Source: Sulfurivermis fontis
Lineage (GTDB): Bacteria > Pseudomonadota > Gammaproteobacteria > Thiohalomonadales > Thiohalomonadaceae
Reading direction: 5' to 3'
Length of the DNA: 64,000 nt
Assembly: GCF_004001245.1 (NCBI RefSeq)
Contig: NZ_AP018724.1
Span: forward strand, 922,501 to 986,500
The notes under the pieces were generated by a model. It saw only the letters and a program-made list of their open reading frames with translations. It searched no databases and was not told the origin of the DNA. Positions 4,335 to 58,125 of this stretch are shown in pieces (within the stretch, counting starts at the first letter, position 1; the number at the start of each line of letters is the position of its first letter). The translations under genes were made by a program, and so were the position numbers.

Positions 4335-5120
4335 ATGAATCCGGCACTGTGGATCGCAAAAACCGGCCTGGAGGCGCAGCAGACCCGCTTGGGTGTGGTC
4401 TCCAACAATCTGGCCAACGTCAGTACCACGGGCTTCAAGCGCGACCGCGCTGTTTTCGAGGATCTGTTGTACCAGACCGTGCGCCAGCCCGGCGCCCAGT
4501 CCAGCCAGGATACGACTCTGCCGTCCGGCCTGATGCGCGGTACCGGTGTGCGTACCGTCGCCACTGAGAAGTTGCACACGCAGGGCAATATCGTGCAGAC
4601 CAACAATTCGCTGGACGTGGCCATCCAGGGGCGCGGTATGTTCCAGGTCTTGCGTCCGGACGGCACGCTGGCCTACACCCGTGACGGTACCTTCCAGATG
4701 GATGCCCAGGGACAGTTGGTGAATTCCGGCGGCTATCTGATCCAGCCCGGTATCACCATTCCCACGGATGCCCAGTCGATCTCCATCGGCAGTGATGGCG
4801 TGGTGAGCGTGCAGATTGCCGGCCAGGCCGCGCCCACTCAGGTGGGCAGCATCCAGCTGGCCGATTTCATCAATCCTTCCGGTCTGCAGCCTATCGGCGA
4901 AAACCTGTTCGTGGAAACCGCTTCCAGCGGTGCTCCCCAGTTGGGTACCCCTGGCCTGAACGGTCTCGGCACGGTGATCCAGGGCTCGCTGGAAACCTCC
5001 AACGTCAATGTGGTGGAGGAAATGGTGAACATGATCGAAACGCAGCGCGCCTACGAGATCAACTCCAAGGCGATCTCCACGGCGGACCAGATGCTGCAGT
5101 ACCTGAACAACAACACCTAA
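4335..5120 (+). CDS. flgG: Distal rod protein FlgG
   Basis: FlgG forms the distal rod that crosses the peptidoglycan and outer membrane. The 261-residue length is characteristic. Motifs are [20 protein letters not shown] near the N-terminus, [14 protein letters not shown] in the middle, and a C-terminal [20 protein letters not shown] block that is a near-signature of FlgG. It directly precedes the L- and P-ring genes, as expected. Confidence 0.96.
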
Positions 5121-5146
5121 GCGCGCGGAGCCTACGGGAGTACATC

Positions 5147-5821
5147 ATGAAAACTCTGCTTGCCATCATCGCCAGCGTCACCGCGCTGTCCGGCTGTGCC
5201 ACCATCGATCCGCCAGCACGCGACCCAGCCTATGCGCCCACCATGCCGGTGGCTCCGGTGTCGGCGCAGGACAACAACGGCGCCATTTACCAGCCGGTGA
5301 ACGGCCTGGCACTGTTCGAGGACGTGCGTGCACACCGCGTTGGCGACATACTTACCGTGCAACTGGTGGAAAAAACCAATGCCAGCAAGAAGGCGGCCAC
5401 CAGTACCTCCAAGGATCAGGACATCAGCCTGGGGGTGACCGATGTGTTCGGTGGTCCGGTGAGCGTCAATGGCCGCAATCCGTTGACTGCGTCGGTCAGC
5501 GGCAGTCGTGACTTCAGCGGTGACGGTGCCAGCAGCCAGAGCAACACCTTGACCGGCAATATTTCCGTAACCATCGCCGAGGTGTTGCCCAACGGCAACA
5601 TGATCGTGCGCGGCGAGAAGGTACTCACTATCAATCAGGGCGATGAATTCATCCGTATCGCCGGTATCGTGCGCCCGGTGGATGTCAGCCCGGACAACAC
5701 CGTGCTGTCCACCAAGATAGCCAATGCCGAGATTACCTATGGCGGCCGCGGCACTCTGGCCGACTCCAACCGCAAGGGTTGGTTGGCACGCTTCTTTGAC
5801 AGCCCGCTGTGGCCGTTCTGA
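5147..5821 (+). CDS. flgH: Flagellar L-ring lipoprotein FlgH
   Basis: FlgH forms the outer-membrane L-ring bushing around the rod. The 224-residue protein has a lipoprotein signal peptide with lipobox LSGC (Cys about residue 18). The conserved FlgH body includes [18 protein letters not shown] and a C-terminal block around [19 protein letters not shown]. It is followed by flgI after 11 bp. Confidence 0.95.
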
Positions 5822-11237: not shown

Positions 11238-13949
11238 ATGTTATCGTCACGATACACAAAAAAAGGGGGGGGAGTGGGGGAGCAACGAACGGACGCAGTA
11301 GATGCCATTACAAAAGCGCTGAATCTGGCAGTGCAGTGTCAGACGGCGGGTGATCTGCGTGCGGCCGAGGTATTGTACCGCAAGATACTCGAATCCAGTC
11401 CGGCCCATCCCTCTGCATTGCACAATCTGGGTATACTTCTGGCACATTCGGGCCGCCTTGAGCAAGGTCTGGCTCTGCTCGAACAGACAATCAAGCTACG
11501 TCCCACCGAACCCTCCTATCACTTCAACCGTGCCGTCGTCCTGCAGAATGCAGAGCAGCTTGCCGCAGCAGCAGACAGTTACCGCGCCGCCATCGGCCTG
11601 CGTGCGGATTATCGCGAAGCCTGGGAAAATCTCGGTGTCGTACTGCTCGACAGCGGGGACTTTGCCGGCGCCATTGCTGCCTGCACCAGGGCGCTGGATA
11701 TCGACCCCAGTTCTCTCATCGCACACCGCAATCTGGCCAGCGCCTATGTGGCCGTTGGCCAGCGTGCAGCAGCGTTGACGCAGATCGAGCAGGGTTTGTC
11801 TTTTTATCCTGCCAATGGCGATTTGCATATGCAGCGCGGCGTCGAATTGCTGGCTGCGGGGCGGTTTGCTGAGGGTTGGCATGAATATGAATGGCGCTAT
11901 AACGCCATGCTTTCCCTCAATGCCACACCGCCGCGGCGTGTGCCATTTCCGAAGTGGGGCGGTGAACCGCTGGCGGGCAAGGCGGTATTGGTGTATGGCG
12001 AACAGGGCATCGGCGATGAAATCATGTTTGCCTCCTGCATACCGCAGCTGGTAGCAGGCGTGGGGCGTTGCGTAATCGAATGTGAACCGCGCTTGTTGCC
12101 ACTGTTTGCCCGCAGCTTTCTCGCATGCGAGGTGATGGCGCGCGAGCGTATGGATTCCTTCGTCTGGCGGCCGTCTCTCGGAGCCATCGACTACCGCATC
12201 TCCAGTGCCAGTCTGCCAATGTATTTCCGGCGTGACGCCGCCGCTTTCGGGGATGGCGCCGCATATCTGATCGCCGAACCCCAACAGGTGGCGCAGTGGC
12301 GTGACCGTTTTGCCGCCCTGGGGCCTGGGCTCAAAATCGGCATTTCCTGGCGCGGAGGGGCGAGCGCACGCATGAAGGCTGCCCGCTCCCTGGAACTGAC
12401 TGCATTGTCGCCTTTGTTCAAACTGCCGGGCGCTACATTCATCAGCCTGCAATATGGCGATATTGCCGCCGAGGTGGCGGTCAGCGGATTGCCGCTGCAG
12501 GTATTCGAGCAGATCGACCCGCTGCATGATATGGATGGCTTTGCAGCAGCGTTGAAGGCGCTGGATTTGGTGATTTCGGTGGATAATTCCACTGTCCATC
12601 TGGCGGGAGCGCTGGGCGTCGAGACCTGGGTGTTGCTGCCGCTCGCGGCGGACTGGCGCTGGTTTGCACGCGAGACGGACAGCCTGTGGTACCGTTCCCT
12701 GCGGCTGTTCCGCCCGAAGGTGCCGGGAATGACGGGATGGCAGGCCGTGATCGCTGAGGTGGCTGCCGCGCTGGCGGCACGCGGTACTGGCATGTTGCAC
12801 GAAGAGACAGCCTTGCACACCGCTGCTTTGCGGCAACCCTATCATGAGGTAGCGCAGTCTGACGGTCCGCGTGTCTTGCTCCTCAATGACACCAGCTACT
12901 GGTATCACTGGGGCTGCACGGGGACCTCCCTCGCCCTGCACGAGGGGTTACGCACGGCGGCGGGCGCGCTGCTTTCCGTTCCCATCAGGACCATGCAGCA
13001 TCTTGCGGCGCTACCGGGACGCCCGGAGCAGTTCGACGATGAGGCGATCTATGCACGTTTCCGCGCCGCCAACCCGGCGTTGCTGCGGATGCTGGAGGAG
13101 ACGGAGCGGGTAGTGGTCAACGGTGAGGGGTCACTACACGGCAGGAGCGCACTGGTGCTGGGCCTGCTGTATACCGCATATATCGCCAAGACCCGCCTGG
13201 CGCGCGAGGTGCACATTGTCAATCACTCCTGTTTCCCCACCGATGACAGGCCGCTGCAGGGTGATCCGCTGACAGGACTGTATGCACAGGTGTATCGCTG
13301 CATGGATCGGGTGGTGGTGCGTGAACGCCTGAGTGCGCGCACTGTCACTGCCCTGGGGGCTCAGGCGGTACAGGGATTCGACTGTTTGCCGCTATTTATC
13401 GAGCGCCACTGGCCGGGGCGGCACACGGATGGGGGCGGGCGGGTGGTCATCGCCGGCTCGGTGTCCTGGACGCCTGCTATGCTGGATGCGGTAGCCGGAC
13501 TGGTCGACAGCCTGACCAGACAGGGGTTGGGTATCGACGTGCTGATCGGCGCCAATGCCTGGATGGCGGTGGACGATGTGGAGTTTGCGGCTGCCTTTCG
13601 GCGCCGCTGTCGTGCGGAATACCGTTTGCTGACGGCGTATACCGAGCAAGAGTGGCTGCACGCCATTGCCAGTGCCCGCCTGCTGGTCTCCGGACGTTTT
13701 CACCACACTATTGCCGCTGCCTTTCTGGCAACCCCCTTTCTCGTGATGACCAGCAATACCGGCAAGATTGATGGTCTGGTCGACATGCTTGGACTGGAGG
13801 CGAGTGTGGTTCACTGTACGGCGCCGACCGCTGCCGTGCTGGTGCAGCGGGCGCAGCACCTGCTGGATGACCCTGCCCCCGCCTTACTCGGCGCGGCGCG
13901 GCGGGCGGAGTTGCTGGCAATGGCACGCCTTAATTTCGATGCCGCGTGA
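11238..13949 (+). CDS. TPR - glycosyltransferase-like - polysaccharide pyruvyltransferase fusion
   Basis: This predicted protein of about 900 residues has three parts. The N-terminal 220 or so residues are tetratricopeptide repeats (for example HPSALHNLGILLAHSGRLEQG). The middle part (about 240-540) resembles the GT9/GT-B-like domain often attached to TPRs (VYGEQGIGDEIMFA, then VISVDNSTVHLAGALGV). The C-terminal part (about 545-890) looks like a polysaccharide pyruvyltransferase domain, with VVVNGEGSLHG and LLVSGRFHHTIAAAFLATPF. Sitting between flgL and fliC, it is likely to modify flagellin or a flagellum-associated glycan, which is inference. Starts at GTG 11217, ATG 11238 and GTG 11274 are all in frame; ATG 11238 is chosen, but the A7G8 tract makes the start uncertain. 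No promoter is seen, so it may be co-transcribed with flgL. Confidence 0.8.
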   Translation: MLSSRYTKKGGGVGEQRTDAVDAITKALNLAVQCQTAGDLRAAEVLYRKILESSPAHPSALHNLGILLAHSGRLEQGLALLEQTIKLRPTEPSYHFNRAVVLQNAEQLAAAADSYRAAIGLRADYREAWENLGVVLLDSGDFAGAIAACTRALDIDPSSLIAHRNLASAYVAVGQRAAALTQIEQGLSFYPANGDLHMQRGVELLAAGRFAEGWHEYEWRYNAMLSLNATPPRRVPFPKWGGEPLAGKAVLVYGEQGIGDEIMFASCIPQLVAGVGRCVIECEPRLLPLFARSFLACEVMARERMDSFVWRPSLGAIDYRISSASLPMYFRRDAAAFGDGAAYLIAEPQQVAQWRDRFAALGPGLKIGISWRGGASARMKAARSLELTALSPLFKLPGATFISLQYGDIAAEVAVSGLPLQVFEQIDPLHDMDGFAAALKALDLVISVDNSTVHLAGALGVETWVLLPLAADWRWFARETDSLWYRSLRLFRPKVPGMTGWQAVIAEVAAALAARGTGMLHEETALHTAALRQPYHEVAQSDGPRVLLLNDTSYWYHWGCTGTSLALHEGLRTAAGALLSVPIRTMQHLAALPGRPEQFDDEAIYARFRAANPALLRMLEETERVVVNGEGSLHGRSALVLGLLYTAYIAKTRLAREVHIVNHSCFPTDDRPLQGDPLTGLYAQVYRCMDRVVVRERLSARTVTALGAQAVQGFDCLPLFIERHWPGRHTDGGGRVVIAGSVSWTPAMLDAVAGLVDSLTRQGLGIDVLIGANAWMAVDDVEFAAAFRRRCRAEYRLLTAYTEQEWLHAIASARLLVSGRFHHTIAAAFLATPFLVMTSNTGKIDGLVDMLGLEASVVHCTAPTAAVLVQRAQHLLDDPAPALLGAARRAELLAMARLNFDAA
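11258..11272 (+). repeat. A7-G8 homopolymer tract at 5' end of the TPR/pyruvyltransferase gene
   Basis: Seven A residues (11258-11264) are followed by eight G residues (11265-11272), then AGTGGGGG. The tract lies inside the reading frame if the ATG at 11238 is used. Tracts of this kind are prone to slippage and act as phase-variation switches in surface-glycan genes of other bacteria. Switching here is an inference. Confidence 0.6.
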
Positions 13950-13984
13950 ATGATGGCGTGTAACGTCCAACTAATTGATTATAA

Positions 13985-14189
13985 GGAAGCTCTGAATAAG
14001 TTCAGAGCTTCCGCGGCACAGGGATGTGCCGCCAATTTTCAACGACGATAAGTCGTTGAAAATCGAAGCCAAGCGAAAATCACACTTTTCGATTGGCGTG
14101 GTTTTGTCCACGGATGGACTTATGTCGCGGAGCCCAGGGACGGGCGGGAGCGACCTGAGAAGTCCAGGATGGACTTATTCAGACCTTCC
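13985..14189 (+). mobile_element. MITE copy 1 (205 bp, IS5-type ends)
   Basis: A non-autonomous element with ends GGAAGCTCTGAATAAGT and, inverted, GGAAGGTCTGAATAAGTCC. It is flanked by the 4-bp direct repeat ATAA (13981-13984 and 14190-14193). The element is a string of perfect or near-perfect hairpins: 13985-14012, 14013-14032, 14034-14057 (approximate), 14106-14119, 14132-14145 and 14160-14176. It has no gene. Related copies lie at 18479, 45722 and 47849, in the opposite orientation. It sits between the pyruvyltransferase gene and the fliC promoter. Confidence 0.9.
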
Positions 14190-14242
14190 ATAAAATAAAT
14201 CTATACCCAGATTTCGCGCTGAATTTTTTTCGCCCCGCCCCC

Positions 14243-14269
14243 TAAAGCTTTCCTCCCCCAGGTCGATAA
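14243..14269 (+). promoter_or_regulatory. Sigma-28 (FliA) promoter of fliC
   Basis: TAAAGCTT at 14243-14250, an 11-bp spacer, then GTCGATAA at 14262-14269. This matches the sigma-28 consensus TAAA-N15-GCCGATAA with one difference in the -10. Transcription would start about 14277, leaving a leader of about 105 nt before the fliC ATG. The fliA gene is in the same window. Confidence 0.92.
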
Positions 14270-14381
14270 ATTGACCGGAAGCGGTGAATGCCCAAGCAAC
14301 AGCAGGCGGCATATCCGCTAATGACAACCCCGCCCGCCCCTGCCAAGCAGGGTGGACCGGGCGACCAGAGGAGACGCAATC

Positions 14382-15806
14382 ATGCCTCAGATTATCAATA
14401 CCAACATGATGTCGCTGAATTCCCAGCGCAACCTGAACACCTCGCAGAATGCCCTGCAGATATCCCTGCAGCGCCTGTCCTCCGGCCTGCGCATCAACAG
14501 CGCCAAGGATGATGCTGCCGGTCTGGCCATTTCCGAGCGCTTCACCACCCAGATCCGCGGCCTGAACCAGGCCGTGCGCAACGCCAACGATGGCATCTCC
14601 TTCGCGCAGACCGCTGAAGGCGCCCTGTCCACCGTCGGTAATGCCCTGCAGCGTATCCGCGAACTGGCGGTGCAGTCTGCCAATGACACCAACTCCGCCT
14701 CCGACCGTCAGGCGCTGCAGAACGAAGTTAGCCAGCTGATCGCCGAGGTGAACCGTGTTTCCGCGGCCACCGAATTCAACGGCCAGAAGATCCTCGACGG
14801 CTCCCTCAGCAACCTGGTGTTCCAGGTAGGCGCCAACCGCAACCAGACCATTACCGTCGATGGCGTGGATGCCCGTGGCTCCCAGCTCGGTGCCGCCGTG
14901 TTGGAAGGCAACAGCGTCACCCTGAGCGACATCACTGGCGTCAATGACGGCACGGCCATTGCTGCCGGTGATTTCAGCGATGTGACCATCAACGGCGTCA
15001 GCGTCGACCTGAGCACTGCCACCAGCCTGGATGAGGTAGTCGCCGCTATCAATGGCGAGTACGGCGCTACCGGCGTGCAGGCCGTTCGCTCGCAGACCGT
15101 GACCACCGACGAGCTGGCGTTCGTCACCCCCAGCGCGGGTGAGAGTATGACCGTGAGCATCAACGGCGTGGCCATTTCAGTCGCTGCGGGTGATGCTGTG
15201 ACCGACTTCATCGATGCGATCAACGCCCGTACCAACCAAACCGGCGTGACGGCGGAAGCGGGTGCTGGTGGCACCTTCGTGCTGAGCTCCAACGCGGATA
15301 TCACCATCGAAGTAGCGACTGCTGATGACACCGCTTCTGTGGCCGGCTTGGCTGACGGCGAGCAGGAAACCTACCTGCGCGGCATCGAGCTTAACGCCGA
15401 GGTGGGTACGACCATCACGGTGGCCGGCACCGATGTCAGCACCCTGCAGCTGGATAATGACTTCGGCGGTAACCCACTGGCAACGGTGGACTACACCCTG
15501 AACGCGGTGGACATCACCACCCGAGACGGTGCCACCGAGGCCCTGCGCACCCTGGATCTGGCCCTGCAGCAGGTGAGCGGCCTGCGCTCCGAGCTGGGTG
15601 CGGTGCAGGTTCGTTTCGAGTCCACCATCTCCAATCTGAGTGTGTCTGCGGAGAACATGACGGCTGCCCGCAGCCGCATCCAGGACGCCGACTTCGCGGT
15701 GGAGACGGCGAACCTGACCCGTGCCCAGATCCTGCAGCAGGCAGGTGTGGCGATGCTGGCTCAGGCGAACCAGCTGCCGCAGAACGTCCTGTCGCTGCTG
15801 CGTTAA
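14382..15806 (+). CDS. fliC: Flagellin FliC
   Basis: The filament subunit, 474 residues. The N-terminal D0/D1 block (INTNMMSLNSQRNLNTSQ, then SSGLRINSAKDDAAGLAISE) and C-terminal block (ADFAVETANLTRAQILQQAG, ending QNVLSLLR) are canonical. The central variable region contains flagellin hook-IN-like repeats (around TINGVSVDL and SINGVAISV). The upstream ATG at 14288 is rejected: the ATG at 14382 follows AGAGGAG and gives the standard flagellin N-terminus. It is the only flagellin gene in this window. It is under a sigma-28 promoter. Confidence 0.97.
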   Translation: MPQIINTNMMSLNSQRNLNTSQNALQISLQRLSSGLRINSAKDDAAGLAISERFTTQIRGLNQAVRNANDGISFAQTAEGALSTVGNALQRIRELAVQSANDTNSASDRQALQNEVSQLIAEVNRVSAATEFNGQKILDGSLSNLVFQVGANRNQTITVDGVDARGSQLGAAVLEGNSVTLSDITGVNDGTAIAAGDFSDVTINGVSVDLSTATSLDEVVAAINGEYGATGVQAVRSQTVTTDELAFVTPSAGESMTVSINGVAISVAAGDAVTDFIDAINARTNQTGVTAEAGAGGTFVLSSNADITIEVATADDTASVAGLADGEQETYLRGIELNAEVGTTITVAGTDVSTLQLDNDFGGNPLATVDYTLNAVDITTRDGATEALRTLDLALQQVSGLRSELGAVQVRFESTISNLSVSAENMTAARSRIQDADFAVETANLTRAQILQQAGVAMLAQANQLPQNVLSLLR

Positions 15807-18427: not shown

Positions 18428-18478
18428 GCAGGAACGGCTCGACGATAAAACGGGGGATGAATTTCCGCGACCTGCTAA

Positions 18479-18682
18479 GGAAGGTCTGAATAAGTCCATC
18501 CTGGACTTTTCAGGTCGCTCCCGCCCTCCCTGGGCTGCGCGACATAAGTCCAACCGTGGACAAAACCACGCCAAGCGAAAAGTGTGATTTTCGCTCGGCT
18601 TCATTTTTCGACGAGTTATCGTCATTGAAAATTGGCGCCACATCCCTGTGCCGCGGAAGCTCCGAACTTATTCAGAGCTTCC
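18479..18682 (-). mobile_element. MITE copy 2 (204 bp)
   Basis: It has the same family ends as copy 1, in reverse orientation (left end GGAAGGTCTGAATAAGTCC, right end complement of GGAAGCTC). It is flanked by CTAA at 18475-18478 and 18683-18686. The right CTAA is shared with the IS5-family element that begins at 18687, so the two elements lie in tandem at one target site. There is no gene. It keeps the long internal segment seen in copy 1. Confidence 0.9.
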
Positions 18683-18686
18683 CTAA

Positions 18687-19844
18687 GGAACTTCTGCAAA
18701 AGTCCCCGATCTGATCTTGCAACCGCATGACCGGAGCCGAGGACGGGGAAAATGAAACAACTGAGCATGACCACGGGGTTCGAGAAATACACCAAGGCGA
18801 CCAAGCGCCAGGCGTTTCTGTCCGACATGGACCGCCTGCTGCCGTGGGCGGAGCTGTGCGCGCTGATAGCGCCGCACTACCCGCAGGCCGGTAACGGCCG
18901 GCCGCCGAAGGAGCTGGAGATGATGCTGCGCATCCACTTCCTCCAGCAGTGGTTCAATCTCTCGGACCCGATGGCCGAGGAAGCCCTGTACGACTCGCTC
19001 AGCATGCGCGCCTTCGCCGGCATCGACCTGGGCGAGCATCCGGTGCCGGACGAAACCACGATCTGCCGCTTCCGCCACCTGCTGGAGCAGCATGGCCTGG
19101 GTCGCAAGCTGTTCCAGCAGATGCACCAGTACCTGCAACGCCATGGCTTCAAGCTGGGCACCGGCACCATCGTCGATGCCACCCTCATCAGCGCCCCGTC
19201 CTCGACCAAGAACAAGGACCAGCAGCGCGACCCGGACATGCACCAGACCAAGAAGGGCAACCAGTGGTATTTCGGCATGAAGGCCCATGTCGGTGTCGAC
19301 CACCGCACCAAGCTCATCCACTCGGTGGTGGCCACCGCCGCCAACGTCCACGACTCCCACTGCCTGCCCGACCTGCTGCACGGCGATGAAACCCGCGTCT
19401 GGGGGGATTCGGCCTATCAGGGCCAGACCGAGGTCATCAAACAGCATGCGCCCAGGGCCCGCGACCTCACCCACCGACGCTACCGCTACAAGGGCTGGGT
19501 CGACGAAGCCGAACGGGCGAAGAACCGCCTCAAGTCCACCATCCGGGCACGGGTCGAACACAGCATCGGTGTCATCAAACGGATATTCGGTTTTGCCAAG
19601 ACCCGCTACCGGGGATTGGAGAAGAATGCCAACCGCCTGTTTGTCACCTGTGCCCTGGCCAACATCTACCTGGTGCGCAGGCAGCTGCTGCGTACTTTGC
19701 AGGCGTAGTGCCGATGCACTACGCCAAATGCGGCTCACGGGCCGCCGGGATGAGCAAATACCGGCGCTGCCGGTGCGATTCGGCGCGTGATGACTCGCTG
19801 ATATCGACGATTTGCTCATATTGGATTACTTGTTCAGAGCATCC
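18687..19844 (+). mobile_element. IS5-family insertion sequence (1158 bp)
   Basis: The left end GGAACTTCTGCAAAAGT and the inverted right end GGATGCTCTGAACAAGT form imperfect terminal repeats. The 4-bp target repeat CTAA lies on both sides (18683-18686 and 19845-19848). It encodes one full transposase. The right-hand CTAA overlaps the -35 element of the fliS sigma-28 promoter. Confidence 0.92.
18752..19708 (+). CDS. IS5-family transposase
   Basis: A complete DDE transposase of 318 residues. The catalytic pattern is visible: D in GTIVDATLI (about residue 143), D in WGDSAYQGQ (about 219) and E in ARVEHSIGVIK (about 269). The N-terminus has the DUF772 block (LPWAELCALIAPHYP, then GRPPKELEMMLRIHFLQQWF). 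It appears intact and could act on its own ends, and perhaps on the related MITE ends, which share the TCTGAA-AAGT core. The latter is inference. Confidence 0.95.
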   Translation: MKQLSMTTGFEKYTKATKRQAFLSDMDRLLPWAELCALIAPHYPQAGNGRPPKELEMMLRIHFLQQWFNLSDPMAEEALYDSLSMRAFAGIDLGEHPVPDETTICRFRHLLEQHGLGRKLFQQMHQYLQRHGFKLGTGTIVDATLISAPSSTKNKDQQRDPDMHQTKKGNQWYFGMKAHVGVDHRTKLIHSVVATAANVHDSHCLPDLLHGDETRVWGDSAYQGQTEVIKQHAPRARDLTHRRYRYKGWVDEAERAKNRLKSTIRARVEHSIGVIKRIFGFAKTRYRGLEKNANRLFVTCALANIYLVRRQLLRTLQA

Positions 19845-45690: not shown

Positions 45691-45721
45691 CTCCTTGTCC
45701 CTCGTGGTGACACCCGGTTAA

Positions 45722-45874
45722 GGAAGGTCTGAATAAGTCCATCCTGGACTTCTCAGACCACGCCAAGCGAAAAGTGTGATTTTCGCTCGGCTTCATTTTT
45801 CAACGACTTATCGTCGTTGAAAAATGGCGGCACATCCCTGTGCCGCGGAAGCTCTGAACTTATTCAGAGCTTCC
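45722..45874 (-). mobile_element. MITE copy 3 (153 bp)
   Basis: Same ends as copies 1 and 2, flanked by TTAA at 45718-45721 and 45875-45878. The flanking sequence joins to CCGGTTAACCGG, a clean empty site. It lacks the approximately 50-bp internal segment with two of the hairpins present in copies 1 and 2. It lies in the leader region of the ABC operon on the minus strand. Confidence 0.92.
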
Positions 45875-45878
45875 TTAA

Positions 45879-46598: not shown

Positions 46599-47624
46599 CT
46601 ATGCCGGCTGACTGACGAATCCCTTTTGGTACGTCCGTTCATGGGCGAGCATCGCCCAGATCGTTCGCGCCATCTTGTTGGCCAGGGCCACGACCGCGAC
46701 ATTCAGCGGCCGGCGCTGGCGTAATTTCGTGACCCACGGGCCGGGGTCTTTGGCGTGGGTCAGCACGGATCGCGCACCGTGAATCAGCAAGGTGCGCAGG
46801 TAGGTGTCACCGCGCTTGCTGATGCCGAGCAGTTTGATGCGCCCACCAGTGCCCACCTGTCGCGGCACCAGGCCGGCGAAGGCGGCGAACTCTCGCCCCG
46901 ACTTGAAGGCTTTGGCGTCGCCCATGATGGCGACCGCCGCCGTGGCGGTCAGCGGCCCGACACCAGGAATTTCAGCGATTCGCTTGCAAGCTTCGTCTTG
47001 CTTGAGCCACAGCTGGATGCGCTGCTCGATGGCGGCGATTTCCCCATCCAGCTTCTCGATGCGCGCCCATTGCTCGCGCAACGTATCGATCACCATTGCC
47101 GGCAGCCGGTCTTCCAGTCTGGCCAAAGCCGCAGCAATTCCCTTCCTGACCCCCGCTTTGCCCTGCGGCATCACTTCACCGTATTCGGCGAGCAACCCCC
47201 GCAGGCCGTTAATCTGCGCGGTGCGGAACTTGACCAACTGGCTCCTCATGCGGTGCAGCGCCAGGATGGCCTGCTGTTCTTCCGTCTTGATCGCCACCGC
47301 CTTGACGTGCGGCTGCTGCACCGCTGTCCAGATCGCCCGCGCGTCCTGCCGGTCGTTCTTGTTGCCGGTGACGAACGGCTTCACCGCCTTGCCTGGCAGG
47401 AGCTTGACCTGGTGGCCCAGCGCCGTGAGTTTCCTCGCCCAGTGCTGCGCACCGCCGCAGGCTTCCATCCCAATGAGGCATGGTTGCCGGTTAGCGAAGT
47501 GTTCGAGGAACTTCTCGCGCTTGAGCTGCAGGCTCACGATCTCTCCGGTCTCCATGTCGATCCAGTGCAACTGAAATACCCGCTTGGCGATATCCACGCC
47601 AACGACCGTTTTGCTACCATTCAT
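46599..47624 (-). CDS. IS110-family transposase (DEDD recombinase)
   Basis: A 341-residue IS110-family recombinase. The RuvC-like DEDD residues are seen: D11 in VVGVDIAKR, E54 in CLIGMEACGG, and D91 and D94 in GNKNDRQDARAI. The C-terminal Tnp_20 domain is clear (EIPGVGPLTATAAVAIMGD, then LLGISKRGDTYLRTLLIHGA). Start at the minus-strand ATG at 47624; the frame extends further but not with a usual N-terminus. IS110 recombinases use a bridge RNA made from one non-coding end. It appears intact. Confidence 0.93.
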   Translation of the reverse strand: MNGSKTVVGVDIAKRVFQLHWIDMETGEIVSLQLKREKFLEHFANRQPCLIGMEACGGAQHWARKLTALGHQVKLLPGKAVKPFVTGNKNDRQDARAIWTAVQQPHVKAVAIKTEEQQAILALHRMRSQLVKFRTAQINGLRGLLAEYGEVMPQGKAGVRKGIAAALARLEDRLPAMVIDTLREQWARIEKLDGEIAAIEQRIQLWLKQDEACKRIAEIPGVGPLTATAAVAIMGDAKAFKSGREFAAFAGLVPRQVGTGGRIKLLGISKRGDTYLRTLLIHGARSVLTHAKDPGPWVTKLRQRRPLNVAVVALANKMARTIWAMLAHERTYQKGFVSQPA

Positions 47625-47709
47625 TTCGGACCCTCCGGTTTGCCTGTGAAGACCTTCAGTATCTTCCACCTTGGGCACTTCGATGCCGTCGGCCCGTGAG
47701 GGTCCACCT

Positions 47710-47829
47710 TCATCCCACCCACACCGCAAAGCTATCCACGGCGCCGGGCGCCGCAGGTCCCTCCATACCGAAGACGGCCAGCGCGCCGGATAACTCGTGT
47801 TCAGCGCTCACGGGGTGGGAGGCGTCCAT
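47710..47829 (-). pseudogene. Possible gene 5' remnant upstream of IS110
   Basis: A 39-codon frame begins at a minus-strand ATG (47829) with a strong AAGGAG ribosome site 6-10 bp upstream. It encodes MDASHPVSAEHELSGALAVF and then runs to a stop near the likely IS110 boundary. It looks like the start of a gene cut by the insertion. I do not recognise the product, and no matching remainder is visible on the far side. Confidence 0.35.
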
Positions 47830-47848
47830 TCAATTCTCCTTGCCTTAG

Positions 47849-48001
47849 GGAAGGTCTGAATAAGTCCATCCTGGACTTCTCAGACCACGCCAAGCGAAAC
47901 GTGTGATTTTCGCTCGGCTTCATTTTTCAACGACTTATCGTCGTTGAAAAATGGCGGCACATCCCTGTGCCGCGGAAGCTCTGAACTTATTCAGAGCTTC
48001 C
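47849..48001 (-). mobile_element. MITE copy 4 (153 bp)
   Basis: Near-identical to copy 3, with the same internal deletion, and flanked by TTAG at 47845-47848 and 48002-48005. It contains no gene. It lies between the IS110 region and a small membrane protein gene. Confidence 0.92.
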
Positions 48002-48050
48002 TTAGGTTTTCATGGTTGGCAAACTGCCAGTGCATTTCGGAGGGAAAAAT

Positions 48051-54046: not shown

Positions 54047-54213
54047 TCAGTCATCCTCGCGCGATGGATAACCGATGGCAGTGATGCACGAGTAAGTCAT
54101 GGTCACGAATGACCGTTTGCGTGTGCTCCGGCGAAGACGTTGGCCTTGTGTCGAGAGAACTTCAGAGCAAAAGAGCGTGGAACCGGGCAACATTGGGGCA
54201 CAGGGCCGCCACC

Positions 54214-54540
54214 GACACGCCGACGCCGATCCAGCTCGCGCTCGCCCGCGGCCACCGCTGGCTGGCGATGGTGGACAAATTCGCCGGGAGCGAATTTGGA
54301 CGGCGTAGCCGGCCCCGAAGGGGGGAGCCCCAGGGACGGGGCGAACAATCCGGCGTGGCACGCACGCTATCCGAGGTGGCCGAACGCGAGGGGATGGATC
54401 GGGCCTACGTGAGCCGGATGGTGAACCTCACCACCCTGGCGCCGGACATCGTCGCCGCCATACTCGACGAGACTCTGCCGCCGGAGGTGACGCTGTTCGA
54501 CCTGGCGTCGGGGACGCCGCTGTTGTGGGAGGAGCAGCGG
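54214..54540 (+). repeat. 327-bp direct repeat, left copy
   Basis: Matches 57757-58083 with only about three base differences (for example at 54323 and 54337 regions within the hairpin element). It carries a ParB-like helix-turn-helix coding segment. The two copies bracket the mer genes and a serine-recombinase remnant. Confidence 0.95.
54277..54342 (+). repeat. In-frame hairpin-array element (a)
   Basis: Four short stems follow each other: AAATTCGC/GCGAATTT with loop CGGGA; GGC-GTA-GCC; CCCC-GAA-GGGG; GCCCC-AGGGAC-GGGGC. The element lies in the coding frame of the helix-turn-helix gene between LAMVD and ARTLSEV, where related proteins have only a few residues. It is part of the 327-bp duplication, so it is the same insertion as element (d). 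Confidence 0.85.
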
Positions 54541-57526: not shown

Positions 57527-57708
57527 CAAATTCGTCGGGAACGAATTTGGACAGCCGCAAGGCTGGTCCCGCAGGGACGGGCTCCAGGGAAGGAGCCCGC
57601 AGTGAAATCCTGATCGACAAGACCGGCCAGCCAGAGGTGATCACCGCGAGCGACGGCAGCCTTACCGTCACCGTGCCGATCCGGATCAAGCGCCGCGGCA
57701 GCCGCTAG
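57523..57708 (+). CDS. Small element protein with in-frame hairpin insertion
   Basis: A 61-codon frame: a start, then about 24 codons made of element (c) (read as NSSGTNLDSRKAGPAGTGSR), then EILIDKTGQPEVITASDGSL and TVTVPIRIKRRGSR, a conserved small protein or domain next to this recombinase family. It stops at TAG 57706-57708. The frame goes on directly into the 57712 gene, so the TAG may split what was one protein. Function unknown. Confidence 0.55.
   Translation: MTNSSGTNLDSRKAGPAGTGSREGARSEILIDKTGQPEVITASDGSLTVTVPIRIKRRGSR
57528..57598 (+). repeat. In-frame hairpin-array element (c)
   Basis: Stems: AAATTCGT/ACGAATTT with loop CGGGA; AGCC-GCAA-GGCT; TCCC-GCA-GGGA; GGGCTCC-AGGGAA-GGAGCCC. 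It starts two codons into the small gene at 57523 and leaves the frame open. Confidence 0.85.
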
Positions 57709-57711
57709 GCC

Positions 57712-58125
57712 GTGACCCTGCCGGACGGCAGCGCCGCCCAGCCCCGTCCCTGGGACGACACGCCGACGCCGATCCAGCTCGCGCTCGCCCGCGGCCACCG
57801 CTGGCTGGCGATGGTGGACAAATTCGCCGGGAGCGAATTTGGACGGCGTAGCCGGCCCCGAAGGGGTGAGCCCCAGGGATGGGGCGAACAATCCGGCGTG
57901 GCACGCACGCTATCCGAGGTGGCCGAACGCGAGGGGATGGATCGGGCCTACGTGAGCCGGATGGTGAACCTCACCACCCTGGCGCCGGACATCGTCGCCG
58001 CCATACTCGACGAGACTCTGCCGCCGGAGGTGACGCTGTTCGACCTGGCGTCGGGGACGCCGTTGTTGTGGGAGGAGCAGCGGGTGCGGATTGGGGTCAG
58101 CGCAGCAAATTCTCGAGATCCTTGA
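57712..58125 (+). CDS. ParB/KorB-like HTH protein, right copy
   Basis: A 137-codon frame from a GTG at 57712. It begins TLPDGSAAQPRPWDDTPTPI, which is the native 5' end lost from the left copy, and continues with LALARGHRWLAMVD, hairpin element (d), ARTLSEVAEREGMDRAYVSR and LAPDIVAAILDETLPPEVTL. After WEEQR the frame runs into non-family sequence (VGVSAANSRDP-like tail), so the 3' end is truncated. It probably binds DNA in the life of the parent element. Confidence 0.7.
   Translation: MTLPDGSAAQPRPWDDTPTPIQLALARGHRWLAMVDKFAGSEFGRRSRPRRGEPQGWGEQSGVARTLSEVAEREGMDRAYVSRMVNLTTLAPDIVAAILDETLPPEVTLFDLASGTPLLWEEQRVRIGVSAANSRDP
57757..58083 (+). repeat. 327-bp direct repeat, right copy
   Basis: The right-hand partner of 54214-54540, in the same orientation, about 99 percent identical by eye. 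Homologous recombination between the two would remove about 3.5 kb containing merR, merT, merP and merA. Confidence 0.95.
57820..57885 (+). repeat. In-frame hairpin-array element (d)
   Basis: The same element as (a) with two base changes, both in or next to the third and fourth hairpins (GGGGTGAGC for GGGGGGAGC, and AGGGAT for AGGGAC in the loop). The stem pairing is kept. Confidence 0.85.

Follow-up and report, generated by a model that had tools for sequence, protein, structure and literature searches.

Mobile element and its copies in the host genome

The window (the whole stretch of 64,000 nucleotides of the Sulfurivermis fontis genome that was analysed) contains four copies of a repeated element, the second of which is adjoined by an IS5-type transposase gene (Table 1). 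Across the host genome, a single contig of 3.25 Mb, 40 long-form copies were found at ≥95% identity, together with at least 11 short-form copies (at least 50 in total). The element is 155–205 bp long and contains no transposase gene; the short form (∼155 bp) is the long form without a 52-bp insert that bears two of the four GGA loops. Near-inverse terminal repeats (GGAAGCTCTGAATAAGT and GGAAGGTCTGAATAAGT) are present at the two ends, and most of 30 aligned long copies are flanked by matching 4-bp duplications, mostly YTAR (CTAG/CTAG, TTAA/TTAA, and TTAG/TTAG at other copies). By its size, gene content, copy number, ends and duplications, the element qualifies as a MITE whose ends are of IS5 type, and it was active recently, most of the 30 copies differing from the consensus at no or one position. 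Terminal inverted repeats, YTAR duplications of 4 bp, the lack of a gene and a related transposase nearby are all common to IS5-family MITEs, from which the element differs by a conserved RNA fold that is also found with at least two other types of ends (see below). A DNA similarity search for relatives on phages and plasmids returned none. An IS110-type transposase gene (46599–47729) is flanked by copies 3 and 4, which share their orientation and are ∼2.1 kb apart.

Table 1. Features of the element and its copies in the window.
Feature	Position	Strand	Remark
Target site duplication ATAA, left	13981–13984	.	ATAA again at 14190–14193
MITE copy 1, long form	13985–14189	+	205 bp
Left terminal repeat GGAAGCTCTGAATAAGTTCAGAGCTTCC	13985–14012	+	Hairpin in its own right
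H1 hairpin GCGGCAC-AGGGAT-GTGCCGC	14013–14032	+	Loop AGGGAT 14020–14025; with ACAGGGATGT
H2 hairpin	14036–14062	+	Loop GATAA, without GGA
H3 hairpin	14068–14097	+	Loop TCACAC (conserved YCRCRY), without GGA
52-bp long-form insert	14103–14154	+	A single unit (TTTGTCCACGGATGGACTTATGTCGCGGAGCCCAGGGACGGGCGGGAGCGAC) of the host's GGA-hairpin array; missing from short copies; unit also in the stand-alone array L306
Insert hairpin GTCC-ACGGAT-GGAC	14106–14119	+	Loop ACGGAT
Insert hairpin GCCC-AGGGAC-GGGC	14132–14145	+	Loop AGGGAC (genome consensus AGGGAG)
H4 hairpin within right terminal repeat	14160–14176	+	Loop AGGAT 14166–14170
Target site duplication ATAA, right	14190–14193	.
Copy 2, long form	18477–18684	−	Second loop decayed to ACGGTT; TSD CTAA
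IS5-type transposase (DUF772 + DDE_Tnp_1) adjoining copy 2	18752–19708	+	Similar terminal repeats GGAACTTCTGCAAAAGT / GGATGCTCTGAACAAGT; CTAA duplication
Copy 3, short form	45719–45877	−	TSD TTAA
Copy 4, short form	47846–48003	−	TSD TTAG

The preliminary description had reported three exact CANGGANG loops on one strand of copy 1 and a fourth loop, AGGAT. Both were verified: exact CANGGANG starts at 14019, 14109 and 14135 on the + strand and is absent from the − strand of this copy, and the fourth loop lies where it had been placed. When copy 1 was shuffled 20,000 times with its dinucleotides preserved, three CANGGANG sites turned up in a single shuffle (mean ∼0.10). Hairpins with an ANGGAN hexaloop, of which copy 1 has three on the + strand and none on the − strand, averaged 0.0065 per shuffle and never exceeded one (one hairpin in 130 of the 20,000). 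Chance is thus a poor explanation for the three sites and their hairpins. The number of exact matches given for the other copies (two in copy 2, one each in copies 3 and 4) also held; copies 3 and 4 are, however, not decayed, but represent the short form.

Folded alone, the short form yields a row of hairpins (z −13.6). The long form, at minimum energy, pairs its two ends with each other and thereby encloses the inner hairpins (z −9.6). Because inverted repeats yield low energy anyway, comparative evidence was needed. The copies within the host genome are nearly identical and too recent to count as independent evidence; support from them alone was rejected, and a covariance model was therefore built across genomes.

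A conserved core between unrelated ends

Homologues from the same genus (G001 and G004) and from distant families of the class (G028, G034 and G038) were aligned. In this alignment of the short-form core, a structure of four hairpins was paired in 94.8% of cells and gave a covariation score of 0.345, compared with 0.133 for shuffles and 0.04–0.10 (at most 0.101) when the structure was slid along the sequence. Covariation, the check that had been proposed at the outset, was strong. Compensatory changes were found mainly in the H4 stem, at three pairs; the variation of the H1 stem was mostly one-sided (G.U) in the training set, and compensatory stems were present in the wider one. When 321 genomes of the class were scanned with the covariance model built from the short-form core (R1), the core was found in 64 of them (about one fifth), often in at least ten copies per genome and in one genome in 45. 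Within the host's own family it was limited to the host's genus, as expected because the element is mobile. No Rfam family was reached by the core.

Loops were tabulated for 70 copies, and then for a single copy from each of 49 genomes. GGA was present in the H1 loop of 47/49 genomes, the loop beginning with ANGGA in 42/49, and in the H4 loop of 46/49. Its presence in the loops of H2 (2/70 copies) and H3 (1/70) was rare. Among 44 H1 hexaloops, position 1 was A in all, position 3 G in all, position 4 G in 42 and position 5 A in 43, while all four letters occurred at positions 2 and 6. The stems had diverged in the same 49 genomes (18 distinct 5′ arms for H1 and 20 for H4), so that the GGA was kept relative to the stems, a point on which the preliminary description had staked its reading. 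Neutral hitchhiking, in which an ancestral element chanced to hold GGA hairpins that all copies then inherited without selection, would fit the near-identical copies of a recent burst in the host genome, and also the random orientation of insertions with respect to flanking genes there (19 versus 17, p = 0.87, using crude gene calls), which gave no indication of orientation selection. Neutral drift would, however, have altered the loops as fast as the stems, which makes this explanation very improbable.

The high-affinity site of CsrA/RsmE is an ANGGAX hexaloop that immediately caps a stem and in which N and X may vary; a loop lacking N binds more weakly (Duss et al, 2014; PMC4005645). Compared with these sites, H1 belongs to the ANGGAX hexaloop-on-stem class and most H4 loops to the weaker AGGAX class. 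One-sided stem changes on the GGA strand were G.U in 65 and A.C in 24 cases (p = 1.6 × 10−5; 28 versus 8 in the best-scoring set), an excess that was not significant when counted as distinct column events (30 versus 19; 15 versus 8 in the best-scoring set) and that the covariance model may itself favor. The excess of G.U is suggestive of an RNA made from the GGA strand.

The core was found between IS5-like ends (GGAAGCTCTGA), between GAGGNTGTCGCAAAA ends (loci L036, L217, L218 and L232) and between CAGGCTGTTGAAAAA ends (L227, L230 and L259). Given at least three unrelated types of terminal repeats around one core, the core behaves as cargo. This bears on the alternative that hairpins and loops are retained because they serve transposition, the transposase or a host DNA factor recognising them in single-stranded DNA or in cruciforms, with the GGA incidental. 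The element is clearly mobile, its left end is itself a hairpin and its right terminal repeat encloses H4, all of which would suit such a role. However, H1 is internal, the loop pattern is of the CsrA type with N and X free, the wobble bias of the stems favors RNA from the GGA strand, and no single transposase could impose shared loops on three types of ends. A pure role in transposition is thus unlikely. In two loci of genome G038 (L050 and L056), the core is present in tandem arrays of at least three units, some without terminal repeats, which would form a row of GGA hairpins like that of CsrB.

Host arrays and the long-form insert

In the same genus, stand-alone arrays of GGA hairpins are located immediately 3′ of terminators. 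That of the host (G000:C1:368070; L306) shares its unit with the 52-bp insert of the long form. Between the insert and the host array, stems have changed in a paired manner (GCCGC/GCGGC to GTCGC/GCGAC, and GGCC/GGCC to GCCC/GGGC), with the GGA kept. From this we infer that a unit passed from a Csr-type array of the host into the MITE, or in the opposite direction. The orthologous locus in two further genomes (G001 and G002) shares a promoter-like TTGACT...TAGACT (identified by eye), a short conserved leader and the terminator. With promoter-like sequence and leader conserved in three species, the stand-alone array is a candidate Csr-type sRNA locus outside Rfam. At L306, as at L048 (∼2136) and L052 (∼1498), as many as six GGA-loop hairpins are arrayed after a terminator beside a PilZ-domain-like gene. 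A class-wide preference of GGA arrays for terminator T-runs was rejected (in 28 genomes a T-run preceded SCAGGGATGS, versus 29 genomes for the reverse-strand motif), although individual clear cases of an array after a terminator T-run do exist.

CsrA, known systems and the proposed role

The Csr/Rsm system is a global post-transcriptional switch whose state depends on how CsrA is balanced against its decoy RNAs. The host genome contains one csrA. Within the class, csrA was present in 56/64 genomes with the core and in 216/257 without it (p = 0.56, not significant), and in 51/54 versus 193/222 when only good assemblies were considered (p = 0.16), a test that is weak because csrA is so common in the class. 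Dependence of the element on csrA was rejected on these grounds. One assembly without detected csrA (G533, 95% complete) carries about ten copies of the core, and both of the two that were read have GGA loops. The reading of the preliminary description is partly supported: the loops are kept and, in H1, agree with the published consensus, whereas the presence of csrA does not significantly follow that of the element. From the sequence, the spread of predicted CsrA-type sites by a transposable element is well supported, and a decoy RNA for CsrA made by the element is a plausible hypothesis.

CsrA does not account for everything, since H3 has a conserved loop of its own: YCRCRY (14080–14085 in the window), with A4/T4 at the top of its stem, is conserved across the 49 genomes, and no known motif accounts for it. 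This loop, which is not a CsrA motif, and the assemblies that carry the core without csrA would also be compatible with a structured RNA whose GGA loops bind a partner other than CsrA, or which acts as a stable 3′ end or RNase barrier, any CsrA sites being coincidental. Two separate loops have nevertheless converged on the CsrA loop, the positions read by CsrA are exactly those that are fixed, and the long form has four such loops; another partner or role is hence improbable.

The decoy RNAs CsrB/CsrC and RsmX/Y/Z/V (Rfam clan CL00106) have several GGA-loop hairpins on one strand, as does the MITE. In contrast to these, the MITE is mobile and multi-copy, with two loops in the core and four in the long form, and its own promoter and terminator were not found (consensus scan of 13850–14420 around copy 1). 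The element reached no match to the Rfam models of the CsrB/RsmZ clan; one hairpin of RsmV aligns with H1 below threshold (13.4 bits, E 0.18). TwoAYGGAY RNA (RF01731), for which CsrA binding has been predicted (Gardner and Eldai; PMC4333381), also has two hairpins with NGGAY hexaloops, but its architecture differs; the MITE core stays below its gathering score, and true TwoAYGGAY elements are present in other members of the class, which, from such related RNA families, is probably Gammaproteobacteria. Bacterial MITEs that yield small RNAs, QMITE1 and QMITE2, have been described in Coxiella burnetii (PMC5896051); QMITE2 contains a GTAG REP and has duplications of 7–11 nt, unlike the 4 bp found here, and the consulted sections of that account mention no CsrA loop. 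A 2024 review of prokaryotic MITEs (PMC10969869) does not mention CsrA. A literature search that covered few subscription papers yielded no account of this core, nor of a MITE with CsrA sites, and the idea of MITE-borne CsrA-type sites is apparently undescribed so far.

We consider it rather probable that the element is an IS5-type-ended MITE with a conserved RNA payload whose GGA loops bind the CsrA of the host. The payload would be a conserved RNA of ∼115 nt that folds into four hairpins, with a GGA loop read by CsrA/RsmA on H1 and on H4; the long form would have gained one unit of the host's GGA-hairpin array, which would bring the number of sites to four. The element would be transcribed, most likely via read-through from neighbouring genes, and its GGA strand would then bind CsrA. 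Any effect on the cell might then arise from many copies jointly, as a diffuse CsrA decoy, or from a single copy that places a CsrA site on the transcript of its neighbour. For copy 1, an action on the flagellin transcript was rejected: a sigma-28-like promoter (TAAAG...GTCGATAA, ∼14244–14270, identified by eye) lies between copy 1 and fliC, so that copy 1 should be outside the leader of the fliC mRNA. It is also possible, though we lean against it, that this is a class-wide family of mobile elements whose conserved CsrA-binding RNA cargo is swapped between unrelated ends and can recruit additional CsrA-binding units of the host, transposition spreading decoys and rewiring or titrating CsrA. 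If the proposed role is correct, CsrA targets and decoys would arise by transposition instead of slow mutation, with tens of copies per genome, which would be a direct route by which Csr RNAs and TwoAYGGAY-like arrays originate; bacterial MITEs would gain a conserved RNA cargo, a role that has been proposed yet is little documented.

Other GGA hairpins were encountered in the window and beyond. The host genome has a further run at G000:C1:316715 (L059; CGGCAC-AGGGAC-GTGCCG and GGCAC-AAGGAT-GTGCC). In the window, a 300-bp duplication (54213–54512 and 57756–58055; 99% identical, with an ORF reading through) holds GCCCC-AGGGAC/T-GGGGC hairpins and the repeat ACAAATTCGCCGGGAGCGAATTTGG, and another GGA hairpin is located at 57578–57599. 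Another kind of MITE-like repeat, in which CAGGGATG hairpins are clustered and which fails to match the core model, is present at L077 (∼5100–5350; with GGAAGGTCTGAA ends, as seen at this locus), L102 and L132. Widespread in the class, too, are large stem-loops in which a pair of CAGGGATG hairpins is set at a fixed distance (L186–L207); some of them correspond to TwoAYGGAY or Ysr224 and several to no Rfam family. The double CAGGGATG motif was found in 46 of 399 genomes of the phylum, whereas the reversed pattern gave few matches.
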